Origin: Mesorhizobium atlanticum
GTDB taxonomy: Bacteria > Pseudomonadota > Alphaproteobacteria > Rhizobiales > Rhizobiaceae
NCBI RefSeq assembly: GCF_003289965.1
Contig: NZ_QMBQ01000005.1
Span: 1-64,000 of the forward strand
DNA length: 64,000 nt
Reading direction: 5' to 3'
Part shown: one piece after another, positions 26,037 to 36,472 of the stretch
Layout: the number at the start of each line of letters is the position of its first letter
Position numbering within the stretch: position 1 is the first letter of the stretch
Notes under the pieces: model-generated
What the model saw: the letters and a program-made list of their open reading frames with translations, nothing else
What the model was told of the DNA's origin: nothing
Databases searched by the model: none
Position numbers and translations under genes: made by a program

Positions 26037-26126
26037 GGAGAGGTGGCAGAGTGGTCGAATGCACCGCACTCGAAATGCGGCATACTCGCAAGGGTATCGG
26101 GGGTTCGAATCCCTCCCTCTCCGCCA
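26037..26126 (+). tRNA. serX: tRNA-Ser (anticodon CGA)
   Basis: 90 nt including an encoded CCA. Acceptor stem GGAGAGG pairs with CCTCTCC; anticodon stem CCGCA/TGCGG encloses the loop CTCGAAA with anticodon CGA (reads UCG); a long variable arm (ACTCGCAAGGGT) marks a class II tRNA-Ser; the T arm is GGGGGTTCGAATCCCTC. The gene symbol is only a placeholder for the isotype. Confidence 0.95.
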
Positions 26127-26752: not shown

Positions 26753-27012
26753 TCGGCTCGAGGCGATTGCGGGGTTGAATTCAGGCAGATCGAATTGGTG
26801 GCGAATAAACCGGTCGCCGCCATGCTCCAGATCATGGAATGTCTTTGCGCGGCGCGGTGTATCGCCGAAGTCCCGACGGCGAGGCTCTGACCGCGAGAAA
26901 CCACAGGCTTACTGCCCGCGGATGTGCTATATTTCATAGACGCAAGCATCTTTGAATGAAATTGCCAAGGGGACTAGCAGCAGAGCCGCGACTTGAGTTG
27001 GGGATGCGCGCC

Positions 27013-28626
27013 ATGAGGTTCTGGGTCGCCATCGTTGGTTTCTTCCTCCTGACCGCGGCAGATCTGCTGCTGCAGCCCGGGGCCCTTGCCGCCCAGGGCA
27101 ACCGGGTTGCGCTGGTCATCGGCAACAGCAAGTATGTCTATGCGCCCGCTCTCCCCAATCCCGCGAGCGACGCCCGCCTGATGGCCGACGTGCTGCGCAA
27201 GGTGGGGTTCAACGTTATCGAAGGCGTCGATCTCGACTATGCCGGAATGCGGGATCGGCTGAACAAGTTTACCGAGGCATCCTACGACGCGGATACGGCG
27301 CTGATCTATTATGCCGGCCACGGCATGCAGGTGAACGGCAAGAATTATCTCATCCCGGTCGATGCCGAGCTTACCGCGCCGGCGCATCTCAAGACCCGCA
27401 CCATCCAGATGGACGAGTTGCTGGCTGCTCTGCCGCCGGACCCGGCCGTCGGCATCGTCATTCTCGACGCCTGCCGCGACAATCCGCTGGCGAGGACCTT
27501 GGCGGCCTCCTTGCCGAAAAGCCGCTCGACCACGGCTCCGGGCCTGGCGCCCATTGATGTCAGCGGGTCGGACGTCGGCACCGGCGGCGTGCTGATCGCC
27601 TTTGCCACCGACCCCGGCGCCGTATCCTATGACGGCGGCGGCGCCAACAGTCCCTATACGACCTCCCTTGCCAAGCATATCGCCGAGCCCGGCGTGGAGC
27701 TCCAGAGCGCGCTGACCCGGGTGCGGGGCGAGGTGACGGCCGAGACGAACGGCAAGCAACGACCCTGGCACAACGCATCGCTCGGCCGCGAGGTCTTCAT
27801 CGGTCCGCAGACCCCGCAGCCGCCGGCACCGGTTCAGCCGGCTCAGCCATCGGCGACCGCGACGCAGGCGGAGCCCGCCAGCACCGACGGGCGCGGATGG
27901 GAAATCGAGCAGCGGGTGTGGGATGAGGCTTCGAAGCGCAACACGCTGGCGCACTATGAAGCCTATTTGCAGCAATTCCCCAACGGGGCGTTCGCCGATC
28001 TGGCGCGTCTCAACATCGACCAGCTCAAGAAGCAGCCGCCCACCGTGGTCGCCAATGTACAGAGCGAGACCTCGCGGTCGGCAACCGCCGTGGAACCTCC
28101 GGCCGCCGCGCCCAAGCCGGAAGCCGACACCGGGACCGAACTGACGGAAAGCGCGATCGGGCTTGATCGCCACGGCAAGATCGACTTGCAGGAACGGCTT
28201 CTGGCGATCGGCTACGACCTGGACGCGGCCGACGGTGACCTCGGCACCAAGACCCGCCGCGCCATCGGCCAGTGGCAGGAGGCGAACAGCTTGCCCCCGA
28301 CCACCTTCCTCACCCCGAAGCAATATGCCCGCCTGAAGCTCGACACGGACGACGCGCTGAAGACGTACCGCGCCAAGCAGGCATCCGAAGCGCGAGCAAA
28401 GAAACAGGAAAGCGTGGTGCCGCAAAAGCCGCAGAAACCGCAACCGGTCGTCCGCGCCAGGCCGAGGCGCCAGGAGCAGCGCGAGGCTGCCAATCCAGGA
28501 CCGGCGCCGAGGCCAAAAGCAACACCAGCGCGGAAATCCGCATACCACATGTGCAGCGGGATTGACGGCACCTTCCAAATTCCGGCATCGCAGAGATGTC
28601 CTTTGAGCGGCTACGCCAACCACTGA
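27013..28626 (+). CDS. Caspase-family (C14) protein with peptidoglycan-binding-like domain
   Basis: 537 residues from 27013 (27004 is also possible; TTGGGG fits 27013 better). Order: signal peptide (1-28), caspase p20-like domain (about 30-250) with NRVALVIGNSKY, catalytic His103 in YYAGHGMQ and Cys154 in ILDACRDNP; a Pro/Ala-rich linker; a short helical repeat segment (YEAYLQQFPNGAFADLARL, about 310-335); a peptidoglycan-binding-1-like domain (about 390-440, LQERLLAIGYDLDAADGD); and a basic Lys/Arg/Pro-rich tail to the end. Bacterial caspase-like peptidases cleave after Arg/Lys or Asp; the target here is unknown. Exported, presumably periplasmic and near the cell wall. Confidence 0.85.
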   Translation: MRFWVAIVGFFLLTAADLLLQPGALAAQGNRVALVIGNSKYVYAPALPNPASDARLMADVLRKVGFNVIEGVDLDYAGMRDRLNKFTEASYDADTALIYYAGHGMQVNGKNYLIPVDAELTAPAHLKTRTIQMDELLAALPPDPAVGIVILDACRDNPLARTLAASLPKSRSTTAPGLAPIDVSGSDVGTGGVLIAFATDPGAVSYDGGGANSPYTTSLAKHIAEPGVELQSALTRVRGEVTAETNGKQRPWHNASLGREVFIGPQTPQPPAPVQPAQPSATATQAEPASTDGRGWEIEQRVWDEASKRNTLAHYEAYLQQFPNGAFADLARLNIDQLKKQPPTVVANVQSETSRSATAVEPPAAAPKPEADTGTELTESAIGLDRHGKIDLQERLLAIGYDLDAADGDLGTKTRRAIGQWQEANSLPPTTFLTPKQYARLKLDTDDALKTYRAKQASEARAKKQESVVPQKPQKPQPVVRARPRRQEQREAANPGPAPRPKATPARKSAYHMCSGIDGTFQIPASQRCPLSGYANH

Positions 28627-32255: not shown

Positions 32256-33938
32256 TTATGAGGCTTGGGGAAGGTCGTAGCCGAATTCTCGGCAGAAAGC
32301 CTCGATGCGGCCGAGAAACGACCTCGGCAAGGTGTGGAGATAGGTGCGGAATTCCTCATTGCGTTCCCATTTCCGCAGCGAGCTCCGTCGAATCGGATTG
32401 TTTGGATCGGAGCTGAAGCGAAGCCTTGCCGCAAGGCCGAATGCATCGGCAATTGCCTGCTGTGCCGCATCGGGTCCGGCAATCAGGTCCTCATAACGCA
32501 GATAGTGGATGGCGCGCCGTGGCTGGGCCCGCCTCAGTCGCAGCAGCCCGTCATACTCAGCCTCCCAGCGTTCGGTCGTGACGTGGAAGCGGCGCACATG
32601 CATCGTCTCGGGATGCTGGCTCGTCAGCACATCGAAAGGATGGCGCACGCAGTAGATCAGGCCGATTTCAGCCGGCAAATGGCTGAGCAGTTCATGACTT
32701 TCGGCGGTGCGCTTGACCACGACATTGGCTTCCCGGCGCTTCAGGTCGATCAGCACCGGAAACGGGGCTTCGCCGCCGAGGACATAGGTGTCGTCGAAGC
32801 ACGCCATCAGGTCGCGGGTCAGCGTGGTGCCGCTGCGCGCGCAGCCGGCGATGAAGATCCTGTTTGGCTGCTTCGGCCTCTTTCGGTCGAGAACCCGGCC
32901 GATCGCCTGCGCCAGGTGAGCGGTATGGTCTTCGAGAGCGGCGACGGCGCGCGATGCCGACATCGGTCGCGCTGTCTGCGGGCAAATTTCGGCCAGCGCT
33001 ATGCCGCTCTCGCCGGCGGCTGCGTAGAGAAGCCAAACCCGCCCGTCTTCCTCGAAGATCGCGGGATCGCGCAGCGCGTTCTCCCTACCTTCGGCGGGAC
33101 CCGTCCGGCTTCTGCGCAGCGGCAGATCCGCCCCTTCGAAGTCAGTCCCTGGTCTCAGCAGCTCGATCCTTTCGCGCACGGTCCAGCGCCGCCAGCCGCG
33201 CGAGAGATCGACCGTGCCATAAAAGATCCGCTCCGGCTGGTCGCCCTTGCGCGTATAAAAAACCCGCAGCCAGCGGCCTTGTTGCTGAACGGCGACATGC
33301 CTTGGCGGCAATCGCCCCCGCGAAGCTTGCAGCAGGACAGGCCCTGTCTCGAAACCGGAGAGACCATCGCTCGACCGGCAAAGCGTGACGACGTCCGTAC
33401 CAAAGAGGCCGTACCACCAATGGCCATGCCGGAAAATCCGCGCATAGGACGGTCCAAGCGCGTTTGCACGGGGACTGAAATGCAGCCCGTCGGCGGATGT
33501 GGCGACGAAGGTCGTCTGCGCACGGCCGCCATTCCCGGTCGGACCATGGAAATAGAGGACGATGCGTCGGTTCTGTTCGTCGACATGCAGGTCGGGGGAA
33601 GCGATGTGCTCTTTAAGAAAAGGACATTCGGCAAGCGACAGGACGCCGCGCGGGTGGATATGCCAAGGACCTTCCAAAGCGTCGGCATAGGCAAGCCGGA
33701 TATAGGTGCCGTTGTGATGCGCGAAATAGAGGTAGTAGGCGCCAAGCCTGCCGGGCACCCAGTCCGGCATCTTGATCAGCGACGGACCGTTTATGTTGGC
33801 GCCGTCGTCGCCGGGCAGCATGTCCGGCGTGATCAGCGCACCGAGCCGCCTTGCCGTGATGCCGCCGGGACGTTTGTGCCGCTGGATATCGCTCAAGCTT
33901 TGTTTCCCGAAAAACGAACAGCCGCCAGATAAGTCCAT
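32256..33938 (-). CDS. Fused beta-propeller (GH43-like) / sulfotransferase protein
   Basis: 560 residues. Residues ~25-325 form repeated beta units like a five-bladed GH43/GH32-type propeller (LITPDMLPGDDGANINGPSL, SPDLHVDEQNRRIVLYFHG, RDPAIFEEDGRVWLLYA). Residues ~355-560 are a P-loop sulfotransferase: the PAPS 5'-phosphosulfate loop IFIAGCARSGTT (from about 360) and the 3'-phosphate part IYCVRHPFDVLTSQHP. The propeller is very similar to the separate gene at 34752-35729 and the sulfotransferase to 35726-36472; DNA identity is visible too, so this is a paralogue with the opposite domain order. Activity on a sulfated or to-be-sulfated glycan is inference. No signal peptide or membrane segment is evident. 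Confidence 0.85.
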   Translation of the reverse strand: MDLSGGCSFFGKQSLSDIQRHKRPGGITARRLGALITPDMLPGDDGANINGPSLIKMPDWVPGRLGAYYLYFAHHNGTYIRLAYADALEGPWHIHPRGVLSLAECPFLKEHIASPDLHVDEQNRRIVLYFHGPTGNGGRAQTTFVATSADGLHFSPRANALGPSYARIFRHGHWWYGLFGTDVVTLCRSSDGLSGFETGPVLLQASRGRLPPRHVAVQQQGRWLRVFYTRKGDQPERIFYGTVDLSRGWRRWTVRERIELLRPGTDFEGADLPLRRSRTGPAEGRENALRDPAIFEEDGRVWLLYAAAGESGIALAEICPQTARPMSASRAVAALEDHTAHLAQAIGRVLDRKRPKQPNRIFIAGCARSGTTLTRDLMACFDDTYVLGGEAPFPVLIDLKRREANVVVKRTAESHELLSHLPAEIGLIYCVRHPFDVLTSQHPETMHVRRFHVTTERWEAEYDGLLRLRRAQPRRAIHYLRYEDLIAGPDAAQQAIADAFGLAARLRFSSDPNNPIRRSSLRKWERNEEFRTYLHTLPRSFLGRIEAFCREFGYDLPQAS

Positions 33939-34115
33939 TTCCGGATTCGCGCCAATGGCTGGACGCGTTCAGCCGGCGATAGCAGCCGGCCTCGACCGGC
34001 GTCTCTGTCTAGATCAACCATCACATCGGATGCGGAATTCCATCGACTCGGCTTGCGATGCTATGGTCCCGACCAGCCCGCTGCCGAGCGGCGGCAGACT
34101 TACAGGAGCCTTCGC

Positions 34116-34742
34116 ATGATCGATCCCGCCACGCTCATCACCTATATCGCGGTCGTGTTCGGCTTCGTCTTCATTCCGGGACCGGCGACGCTGCTCACCG
34201 TTGCGCGCGCGACGAGCTCGGGCACGAAGGTCGGCATCGCCACCGGCGCCGGTGTCGCGGCGGGCGATGTCATCCACACCATCATGGCCATTGTCGGCAT
34301 CTCGGCCATCATCGCCGCCTCGGCGGTGCTGTTCAGCATCATCAAATATATCGGCGCGGCCTATCTCGTTTATCTCGGCATCCGCGCCATTATCGAAAAG
34401 GCGCCGGCCGATCTGGCGGGCAGGTCGCTGCCAATCTCGGCGGGCCGAGCCTTCCGGCAGGCGATCCTGACCGAAGTGCTCAACCCGAAGACGGCTCTGT
34501 TCTTCCTCGCCTTCCTGCCGCAATTCGTCCACCCGCAAAGCGGTTTCGTGGTGCTGCAGCTGATGGTGCTGGGCATCATCTTTGTCCTGCTCGGCCTCTT
34601 CAGCACGGTCGTCTTCGCCGTCAGCGCCGGCGGCCTGGGTTCCTTCCTGCGCCGCAATCCGGCGGTGCTGAAATGGCAGGGCAAGGTGGTCGGCGGCATC
34701 TATTGCGCGCTCGGCGTGCGGCTCGCGCTGCAGCAGCGCTGA
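34116..34742 (+). CDS. LysE/RhtB-family amino acid exporter
   Basis: 208 residues, six predicted membrane helices, with the family start LITYIAVVFGFVFIPGPATLLTVARA and the middle motif ILTEVLNPKTALFFLAFLPQFV. Exports amino acids or related metabolites across the inner membrane. Start at 34116 follows CAGGAG. It lies alone on the plus strand between the two propeller/sulfotransferase loci, with its stop 10 bp from the propeller gene's stop. Confidence 0.93.
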   Translation: MIDPATLITYIAVVFGFVFIPGPATLLTVARATSSGTKVGIATGAGVAAGDVIHTIMAIVGISAIIAASAVLFSIIKYIGAAYLVYLGIRAIIEKAPADLAGRSLPISAGRAFRQAILTEVLNPKTALFFLAFLPQFVHPQSGFVVLQLMVLGIIFVLLGLFSTVVFAVSAGGLGSFLRRNPAVLKWQGKVVGGIYCALGVRLALQQR

Positions 34743-34751
34743 ACGAGCGGC

Positions 34752-35729
34752 TTACGCCAGCAAGGTCGCATCGCCTCCGATACGGCCCAACAGCGCCGCG
34801 ATTAGTTTCCGCAGGCCCGTCGTCCTCGGTTCAACCGGGCAGAGTTCGGCCAGCGCTATGCCGCTTTCGCCGGCTACGGCATAAAGCAGCCAGGTCCGCC
34901 CATCTTCCTCGAAAATGGCTGGATCGCGCAGCGCATTCTCCCTGCCCTTTGCAGCGCCCATTCGGCCACGCCTGAGGGGCAGATCGGCGCCCTCGAAATC
35001 GGTGCCGGGCCTAAGCAGCTCGCTCCTGCCGCGTACCGTCCAGCGCAGCCAGTCGTCGGAGAGATCGATACTGCCGTAAAGCACACGTTCGGGCGCGTCG
35101 CCCTTGCGTGTGTAATAGACGATCAATGAGCTGCCGTTTTTCTGCACCGCGACATGCCTGGGCCGAACCCGCCATGAGCCGGGCAGCACGACCGGTCCCT
35201 CCTCGAACCCGGAGAGGCCGTCATTTGACCGGCGAAGCCGCACGTTGGCCGTGCCGAAGAGCCCATACCACAAGCCATCATGCCGAAAAATCCGCGCGTA
35301 GAATGGTCCAAGCGGTTCGGGATTGGCTGTGAAACGCAGACCGTCGGCGGACGTGGCCGCGAAGGTCGTCTGCCCCTGGCCGTTCGAGGCCGGACCGTGG
35401 AAATACATGACGATCCGCTGGTTTTGCGCATCGACATGCACGTCGGGAGACGCAATATGCCCCGTGAGGAACGGACACGCGGCGAGCGAAAGCGCGCCAC
35501 CTGGATGGATCCGCCAGGGACCCTCTATCGCGTCGGAATAGGCAAGCCGGATGTAGGTGCCGTTGTGATGCGCGAAATAGAGATGGTAGGCCCCGAGCCG
35601 ACCCTTCGCCCAATCGGGCATCCTGACCAGCGACGGCCCGTTTATGTTGGCGCCGTCATCGCCAGGCAGCATGTCGGGCGTGATCAAAGGTCCATGCCGT
35701 CTGGCCAAAAGGCCAAATGCCGGCCTCAT
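34752..35729 (-). CDS. Stand-alone beta-propeller (GH43-like) protein
   Basis: 325 residues. It aligns from residue 15 with the N-terminal part of the fusion at 32256-33938: LITPDMLPGDDGANINGPSL, LYFAHHNGTYIRLAY, ADLPLRR, RDPAIFEEDGRTWLLYA. The catalytic acids of GH43 cannot be assigned by eye. Its ATG overlaps the stop of the upstream sulfotransferase (ATGA), so both are made together, in the order sulfotransferase then propeller, the reverse of the fusion. No signal peptide is evident. Confidence 0.8.
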   Translation of the reverse strand: MRPAFGLLARRHGPLITPDMLPGDDGANINGPSLVRMPDWAKGRLGAYHLYFAHHNGTYIRLAYSDAIEGPWRIHPGGALSLAACPFLTGHIASPDVHVDAQNQRIVMYFHGPASNGQGQTTFAATSADGLRFTANPEPLGPFYARIFRHDGLWYGLFGTANVRLRRSNDGLSGFEEGPVVLPGSWRVRPRHVAVQKNGSSLIVYYTRKGDAPERVLYGSIDLSDDWLRWTVRGRSELLRPGTDFEGADLPLRRGRMGAAKGRENALRDPAIFEEDGRTWLLYAVAGESGIALAELCPVEPRTTGLRKLIAALLGRIGGDATLLA

Positions 35730-36472
35730 CCGCGGGCCCAGTCCGGCATATCATAGCCAAACTCGTCGCAGAACCCTTTGAGGCGTGCGAGAAATATTGG
35801 CGGCAGCGTGCGCAGATAGGTTCGGAACTCTTCGTTCCGTTCCCATTTCTTCAGGGAGGTCGCACGTATGGGATTGCTTGGATCCTCGCTGAAGCGGATA
35901 CGCGGTTTGAGGTCGAATGCCTGCGCGATCCGCTCCTGCACCGCATCCGGCCGGGCGATCATGTCTTCATAGCGGGCATAGACGATCGCACGGCTGGGCT
36001 GTGCTTTCCTCAGCCGCAGCAAAGCGTCATATTCCGCCAGCCAGCGTTCGGGCGTGACGTGGAACCGGCGCTGTGCCCTGCTCTCGGGGTGCGAACTTGT
36101 AAGCACGTCGAAAGGATGGCGGACGCAATAGATCAGGCCTATCGCGCTTGGCAATCTGGCCAGATGCGCATGAGTCCGCTCGGAGCGCTTGACCACTAGG
36201 CTGACTTCCGGGCGGTCCAGCAGGTCCAGTTGGGCATATCTCGCCTCGGCCTGATGGACGAAAGTGTCTTCGAAGCATCCCATCAGGCGCTGTGTAAGCG
36301 TCGTTCCGCTGCGCGCGCAGCCGGCGATGAATATCTTGTTGTAGCGCGCCGTGTCCGATTTCACCCAAAGTCGCCACAGCCGCTTCAAGTCCAGCGCCAA
36401 TCGCCGGATCTCCCTGATCGGTCGCCTGGCGGCCTCGCGCAAAAGCGCTTCTGACTTGCGTGCAAGGTCCAT
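35726..36472 (-). CDS. Stand-alone sulfotransferase
   Basis: 248 residues. A basic amphipathic N-terminal stretch (about 1-45, RRPIREIRRLALDLKRLWRLW) precedes the PAPS-binding loop IFIAGCARSGTT, then VVKRSERTHAHLARLPS and the 3'-phosphate motif IYCVRHPFDVLTSSHP; the C-terminal part (FRTYLRTLP) matches the fusion protein. It transfers sulfate from PAPS to an unknown acceptor, probably a carbohydrate. GGGAGAGAG precedes the start. First gene of the two-gene operon with the propeller. Confidence 0.85.
   Translation of the reverse strand: MDLARKSEALLREAARRPIREIRRLALDLKRLWRLWVKSDTARYNKIFIAGCARSGTTLTQRLMGCFEDTFVHQAEARYAQLDLLDRPEVSLVVKRSERTHAHLARLPSAIGLIYCVRHPFDVLTSSHPESRAQRRFHVTPERWLAEYDALLRLRKAQPSRAIVYARYEDMIARPDAVQERIAQAFDLKPRIRFSEDPSNPIRATSLKKWERNEEFRTYLRTLPPIFLARLKGFCDEFGYDMPDWARG

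Follow-up and report, generated by a model that had tools for sequence, protein, structure and literature searches.

Among the closest described counterparts of the locus treated here are rhizobial sulfotransferases of surface glycans or Nod factors. According to one review, Mesorhizobium loti makes sulfated lipopolysaccharides with 3'-phosphoadenosine-5'-phosphosulfate (PAPS) as the sulfate donor, its nodPQ mutant nodulates more poorly, and sulfation of rhizobial surface glycans is tied to nodulation (PMC6192434). In a second review, KpsS of M. loti is cited as a sulfotransferase with fucosyl activity, and NodH is filed under PF13469 (PMC11625862). Here we analyze a stretch of 64,000 nucleotides from Mesorhizobium atlanticum (contig NZ_QMBQ01000005.1, positions 1 to 64,000; hereafter the window), in which a sulfotransferase (ST) and a beta-propeller (P), abbreviations used throughout for domains and genes alike, are present twice: as one P-ST chain, and as two neighboring genes in the order ST then P. 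Like M. loti KpsS and Sinorhizobium NodH, with which the window STs are compared by description only, the proposed module would belong to the sulfation that rhizobia carry out on surface glycans or Nod factors; unlike it, neither is mentioned with a P partner in the portions of PMC11625862 that treat them. Among the titles and abstract openings listed in searches of open-licence papers, none describes a P-ST module. The module is real and well conserved, and combines known folds in what is, as far as these searches reach, a new way. With a probability of about 60%, we read the locus as a glycan-modifying module of the cytoplasm, present in two paralogous copies, each made of a Sulfotransfer_3 ST and a P of the superfamily of glycoside hydrolase families 43 and 130 (GH43/GH130).

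All three genes reported in the initial annotation are intact and lie on the minus strand. The fusion gene (32256..33938, 560 aa) encodes a P domain (32970..33863, residues ~26-323), a helical linker (32871..32969, residues ~324-356, with a helix at 328-350) and an ST domain (32256..32870, residues ~357-560). The split ST gene (35726..36472, 248 aa, with an N-terminal head of ~46 aa) and the split P gene (34752..35729, 325 aa) overlap by an ATGA that holds the ST stop and the P start (35726..35729, minus strand), by which the two are probably translationally coupled. The nucleotide similarity previously noticed at the propeller start is present but is not confined to it, since both domains are covered: fusion and split copies are 75.6% identical over 857 bp of P (E 7e-175) and 70.7% over 593 bp of ST (E 6e-74). 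At the protein level the identities are 73% for P (E 4e-150) and 58% for ST (E 1e-85), and in the 6.5-Mb genome the fusion had no matches besides the split genes at E<=1e-3.

Both window STs pass the PF13469 (Sulfotransfer_3) cut-off, with 50 and 46.8 bits against 27 (E 5.9e-13 for the fusion, 5.6e-12 for the split gene), and neither matched PF09037 (Stf0) at E<=1; the C-terminal half of the fusion is thus an ST as first proposed, but the Stf0-like type then suggested is not supported. The ST part of the AlphaFold model of the fusion is confident (a model of ST alone, made without an alignment, reached a pLDDT of 49 and was left unused). The fusion ST contains GCARSGTT, its P-loop, and RHPFDVLTS, which we take to be PAPS-binding-type motifs. 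PF13469 and both motifs link the window STs to the Sulfotransfer_3 family, from whose other members they differ in forming a subfamily of their own with an RHPxDVxTS-like motif. Among solved structures the nearest relatives by profile are CurM (E 1.2e-7) and an ST of a polyketide synthase. Judged from these features, the STs are probably PAPS-dependent, and the two strong matches to adenosine-5'-phosphosulfate (APS) kinase in the window genome support a supply of PAPS. The same genome carries three more PF13469 ST genes within 9 kb (G000:C13:531415-540144), possibly a sulfated-glycan cluster, and others on contigs C1, C2 and C4.

The N-terminal half of the fusion is a propeller, as had been predicted. 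The AlphaFold model and the structure matches by Foldseek and VIA agree on a five-bladed GH43/GH130-like propeller; P thus has the five-bladed beta-propeller of GH43 and likewise the propeller fold of GH130, at 10-19% identity to the structures among the 50 matches listed. The fold is shared with GH43/GH130 enzymes such as 3qz4, 5b0p, 9gph and 5a8c, from which P differs in that catalytic acids are not recognizable, that its PF04616 score is below cut-off and that it is often fused to transferases. The window P proteins score 13.7 and 13.3 bits against PF04616, for which the cut-off is 32.2; ten of 120 listed P relatives carry a PF04616 label in source tables, and on rescanning these gave 24.3-30.5 bits, all below that cut-off. 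PF04041 (GH130) was not among the window matches at E<=1, and no NCBIfam model matched the window proteins. At least 5,867 relatives of P were found in the database search, and conservation is high, with 62 invariant columns in 21 sequences (the named members being Mesorhizobium, Verrucomicrobiota and an Armatimonadaceae bacterium) and 29 in an alignment of 73 rows. We describe P as a glycan module, found widely and conserved strongly, that is distantly related to GH43 and has no name of its own.

Outside the Mesorhizobium-type clade, to which the initial annotation allowed that co-occurrence might be restricted, the two domains are found together in both orders. Among the listed relatives of the fusion, P0125-P0131, P0133-P0136, P0158 and P0160 are ST-P proteins (P0136 from Mesorhizobium marinum), and P0137-P0170 include P-ST proteins of another clade at ~35-42% identity. 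A partner-unbiased search, whose query was the propeller segment alone of a sulfatase-P fusion and whose length limit was 401-1276 aa, gave 338 matches, of which the best 120 were classified; its rows are clusters and not independent events. In 66 of these 120 the partner is an ST, from two Pfam families: 27 Mesorhizobium-type P-ST, 11 ST-P, 18 other P-ST, five further Sulfotransfer_3 and five Sulfotransfer_2 (PF03567). The others comprise five sulfatases, six glycosyltransferases (GTs), five lyases or glycosidases, five esterase-like proteins, ten with other partners, and 23 without an annotated partner, including one P-P protein. By hmmscan the partner exceeded its cut-off in every sulfatase, Sulfotransfer_2, further Sulfotransfer_3, GT, lyase/glycosidase (P0195 being a BNR repeat protein) and esterase-like row, and ten unannotated rows had no family over its cut-off. 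Six P-ST and ST-P rows were scanned for PF13469, with P0125 and P0128 above cut-off, P0133, P0137 and P0139 just below it and P0155 without a match; because these scores are mostly below cut-off, it is their match to the window ST by which such rows are classed as ST. Partner domains occur on either side of P, and by source labels P is fused to a PF09224 domain in the listed proteins P0193, P0194, P0197 and P0210. Two groups, known here from database proteins alone, are close to the window arrangement: the sulfatase-P fusions (P0177, P0181, P0187-P0189) likewise join P to sulfate chemistry, but to an enzyme that removes sulfate, and the Sulfotransfer_2-P fusions (P0217, P0218, P0229, P0230, P0232) join it to a sulfate-adding enzyme with a different catalytic domain. 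P is consequently not a dedicated ST partner, since it also joins sulfatases, GTs, lyases and esterases.

Separate genes are found further afield. In a sample of the family, nine of 394 genomes matched, six of them outside the genus, a lower bound as at most three candidates were scored per genome; four of 289 genomes of the class matched an ST-P query, the window genome among them, and 16 of 199 Planctomycetota genomes matched, 15 through P and one through ST. G409, a genome of the same family but a different genus, encodes P and ST in two genes with 3.4 kb between them; around these lie genes of the GT8, sugar-transfer ATP-grasp, AraC and sulfatase types. The genome also has a second P gene (L142:6030-7049), with a leader that by eye resembles the twin-arginine translocation (Tat) type, ~3.5 kb from an Stf0-type ST gene (PF09037; L142:1715-2515). 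Three contigs, named as Planctomycetaceae (L104), Planctomycetota (L112) and Chloroflexi (L105), each have an ST relative that lacks an adjoining P and precedes GT2 and GT4 genes; P was not found in these three genomes, in a search run without a positive control. Neighboring genes in 18 loci were longest open reading frames read by eye, few of them scanned against Pfam.

We propose that P would hold, select or trim a glycan and that the attached or co-translated ST would sulfate it, with PAPS as the donor. Glycan chemistry, most often that of sulfate, is what the named partners of P have in common, and with ST joined to it in one chain or one mRNA, the likeliest role of P is to present or prepare the substrate for sulfation. 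No signal peptide was visible by eye in the window P and ST, and both are therefore expected to work in the cytoplasm, the compartment that contains PAPS. Our best guess for the substrate is a surface polysaccharide or its precursor, because GT genes adjoin the relatives elsewhere and M. loti lipopolysaccharides are sulfated according to PMC6192434; the glycan would most likely be a cell-surface polysaccharide, or a lipid-linked precursor that has not yet left the cytoplasm. A duplication close to the base of the Mesorhizobium-type clade may have given rise to the two copies, the P-ST chain and the coupled ST then P, after which species would have retained different pieces.

Several observations weigh against this reading. 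In 17 of the 50 module-bearing Mesorhizobium genomes the site has ST but no P. Stand-alone P proteins are common and include most of those seen in Planctomycetota. The window neighbors, named by eye as recQ, a short-chain dehydrogenase/reductase (SDR) gene and hexuronate-catabolism-like genes, do not make up a polysaccharide cluster, and the catalytic acids of GH43 cannot be recognized in P. Near P in Planctomycetota, five sulfatases were found in three of 14 loci, a count that may be low as it was made by tblastn with four sulfatases, against ~1.5 expected, an expectation scaled to 235 kb from 496 in 79.2 Mb; lacking clear enrichment over the genome-wide density of that phylum, this neighborhood was dropped as support. 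The argument of the initial annotation, that a fusion beside a split pair betrays a common substrate, is partly sustained: P-ST fusions recur, but P joins other enzymes too and ST does without P in those 17 genomes. That P trims or reads a glycan, as also suggested there, may nevertheless be the case, and the choice between trimming and reading is nearly even.

On the first of these possibilities, P works enzymatically on the glycan, as a glycoside hydrolase, phosphorylase or transglycosylase, and ST then sulfates the edited product; we consider this a serious contender, if somewhat short of even odds. The many invariant columns favor catalysis. The catalytic acids of GH43 enzymes, three in number, lie on blades 1, 3 and 4. 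Matched by strand starts and not by superposed coordinates, the equivalent positions in P hold N/G, Y/R and R/H, hence no acid, and a partial mapping through the profile match to 5a8c sets an invariant Ser of P against a GH43 Asp. Nor could residues be aligned reliably to GH130, hhalign giving probabilities of 15-26% with a reference of five open reading frames out of 14 GH130 loci, one of which (L200) is apparently in the wrong frame. GH130 enzymes have an Arg/His anion pocket for phosphate, and one may speculate that P has a similar pocket suited to sulfate.

The second possibility, to which we give about the same weight, is that P is a non-catalytic, lectin-like reader that recruits various modifying enzymes to one class of glycan. 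Its partners are chemically unrelated and lie on either side, as would suit a targeting module, and the canonical GH43 acids are not seen; against this, conservation exceeds what a binding module would lead one to expect, and many P proteins have no partner domain. A bolder overall reading, which we hold to be rather doubtful, is that P represents a new carbohydrate-active propeller family in several phyla, reading or cleaving one conserved sulfatable glycan and wired in cis to enzymes that add or remove sulfate, sugar or acyl groups, with the Mesorhizobium locus as a permutation of domain order.

How the two orders arose was approached through trees, from which the P fragment P0013 and L110 were excluded and which were run with and without P0038. 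Mesorhizobium-type modules form one clade (P, 96/84 with P0038 and 100/98 without; ST, 97/85 and 99/96), as do the split rows within it (P, 100/90 and 99/92; ST, 100/97 and 99/97). In the best P tree the fused rows are not one clade, although a single fused clade is not rejected by the approximately unbiased (AU) test (p-AU 0.27 and 0.38); for ST p-AU is 0.06 with P0038, and without it the fused rows are monophyletic (88/84). The other P-ST clade splits off at 100 in the ST tree, where an ST-P protein is the closest outgroup to the Mesorhizobium type; in the P tree that type is nearest to stand-alone P. Most simply, the module would have been duplicated once and its order changed once, in either direction, close to the root of the Mesorhizobium-type clade. 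In agreement with the initial annotation, the fusion is not a simple in-place joining of the neighboring pair.

A circular permutation, in which a tandem P-linker-ST array lost one P and one ST and left linker-ST followed by P-linker, is a tentative explanation of the swap. Similarity to the fusion linker is seen at the C-terminus of split P, in its tail, and at the N-terminus of split ST, in its head; these ends are missing in some relatives (the ST-P proteins and G409). With 300 shuffles each, a threshold of z>=2.2 and eight of 22 distinct linkers, 12 of the 19 distinct heads of ST and eight of the 11 distinct tails of P resembled fusion linkers (best z 6.9), both window genes included; heads were not extracted where the P-loop start differs from [IV]FIAGC. 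The fused rows falling outside a single clade in the best P tree point the same way, but the AU tests allow such a clade, seven heads and three tails do not reach that threshold, the linkers are short basic helices, and plain joining would yield equal similarity. Moreover, the stand-alone P0041 and P0043 have tails and the STs of L104 and L112 have basic heads, so that tail and head may predate the fusion; because some unfused relatives have such ends, the resemblance is no proof of permutation.

The module is patchily distributed within the genus. At a threshold of E<=1e-5, 50 of 146 Mesorhizobium genomes were positive, the window genome included, and the loci of all 49 others were examined. 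Wherever the contig shows it, the pieces lie at one site between a block of SDR, uxaC and mtlK-like genes and recQ, except that in G065 the fusion is on the opposite side of recQ and that G045 and G129 have no recQ in the stretch examined. Besides the 17 ST-only genomes, 19 of the 50 have the fusion only, nine the ST+P pair only (with ST spread over two reading frames in G068 and G069) and three the full set (window, G083 and G091, with a broken ST in G091), while one has ST plus the fusion (G105) and one ST plus a P stub of 44 aa (G056). None of the 50 has P without ST sequence at the locus, although in G055 and G065, both fusion-only, a stop interrupts the match. More distant P copies (48-49% identity) occur away from the recQ site in G069 (L048, G069:C52) and in G079 (L049, G079:C208), the latter one of the 17. 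Beside lysE, the fusion-only genomes G104 and G066 keep a 15-aa remnant of the split ST C-terminus (93-100% identity, E 1e-5 and 9e-5), and together with the stub in G056 this means that some smaller sets are eroded larger ones. The retained genes have median dN/dS (nonsynonymous to synonymous substitution) ratios of 0.24 for the fusion (208/210 pairs), 0.22 for split P (66/66) and 0.24 for split ST (336/435), indicating purifying selection on all three gene types.

Twenty of the 96 module-less genomes were surveyed and recQ was found in 18, in 17 of which the SDR or uxaC flanks are in place around an emptied site; no convincing relic of the module was found in these 18 genomes. Weak similarity to the stretch of P around residues ~143-173 recurs in three relatives beyond the SDR gene as viewed from recQ, at L233:7339-7416, L234:1545-1634 and L082:7117-7194 (57-58% over 25-29 residues, E 0.009-0.04), and was taken as chance (two such weak matches in module-less genomes have E 0.009).

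That adjacency and fusions are incidental, P and ST acting on separate substrates, is improbable: P alone in many bacteria and ST alone at the 17 sites, from which it follows that P is not needed for the retention of ST, would suit it, but fusion has occurred repeatedly with two ST Pfam families, in both orders and in separate clades.

From the split side the genes run ST, P, lysE, P-ST fusion and then recQ. The lysE-type exporter gene (34116..34742, plus strand, PF01810), which the initial annotation passes over, separates split P from the fusion, has the same place in many relatives and was found in two of the 18 module-less genomes; nothing in the analysis ties it to the module. Since all P and ST genes share a strand, ST-P-(lysE)-P-ST is symmetrical in order without being an inverted repeat. 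With this strandedness and one chromosomal site shared by nearly all positive genomes, an origin as inverted repeat, mobile element or phage is not favored, no search having been aimed at mobile-element genes. Elsewhere in the window, a protein that looks caspase-like by eye is encoded at 26956-28626, with similar genes near the site in four of 51 loci, where the stretches often end earlier, and a tRNA-Ser (cga) at 26037-26126 is the sole RNA gene found.

In conclusion, the locus keeps one module in both domain orders side by side, and the tie between sulfation and nodulation in rhizobia, as presented in PMC6192434, lends it relevance. P is a large, strongly conserved family that falls below the Pfam cut-off in the proteins scanned; it deserves its own name, and its fusion partners hint at substrates. 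Within Mesorhizobium, a single site offers related strains with P-ST, with ST+P, with ST alone or with none, and thus a natural experiment on what P contributes.

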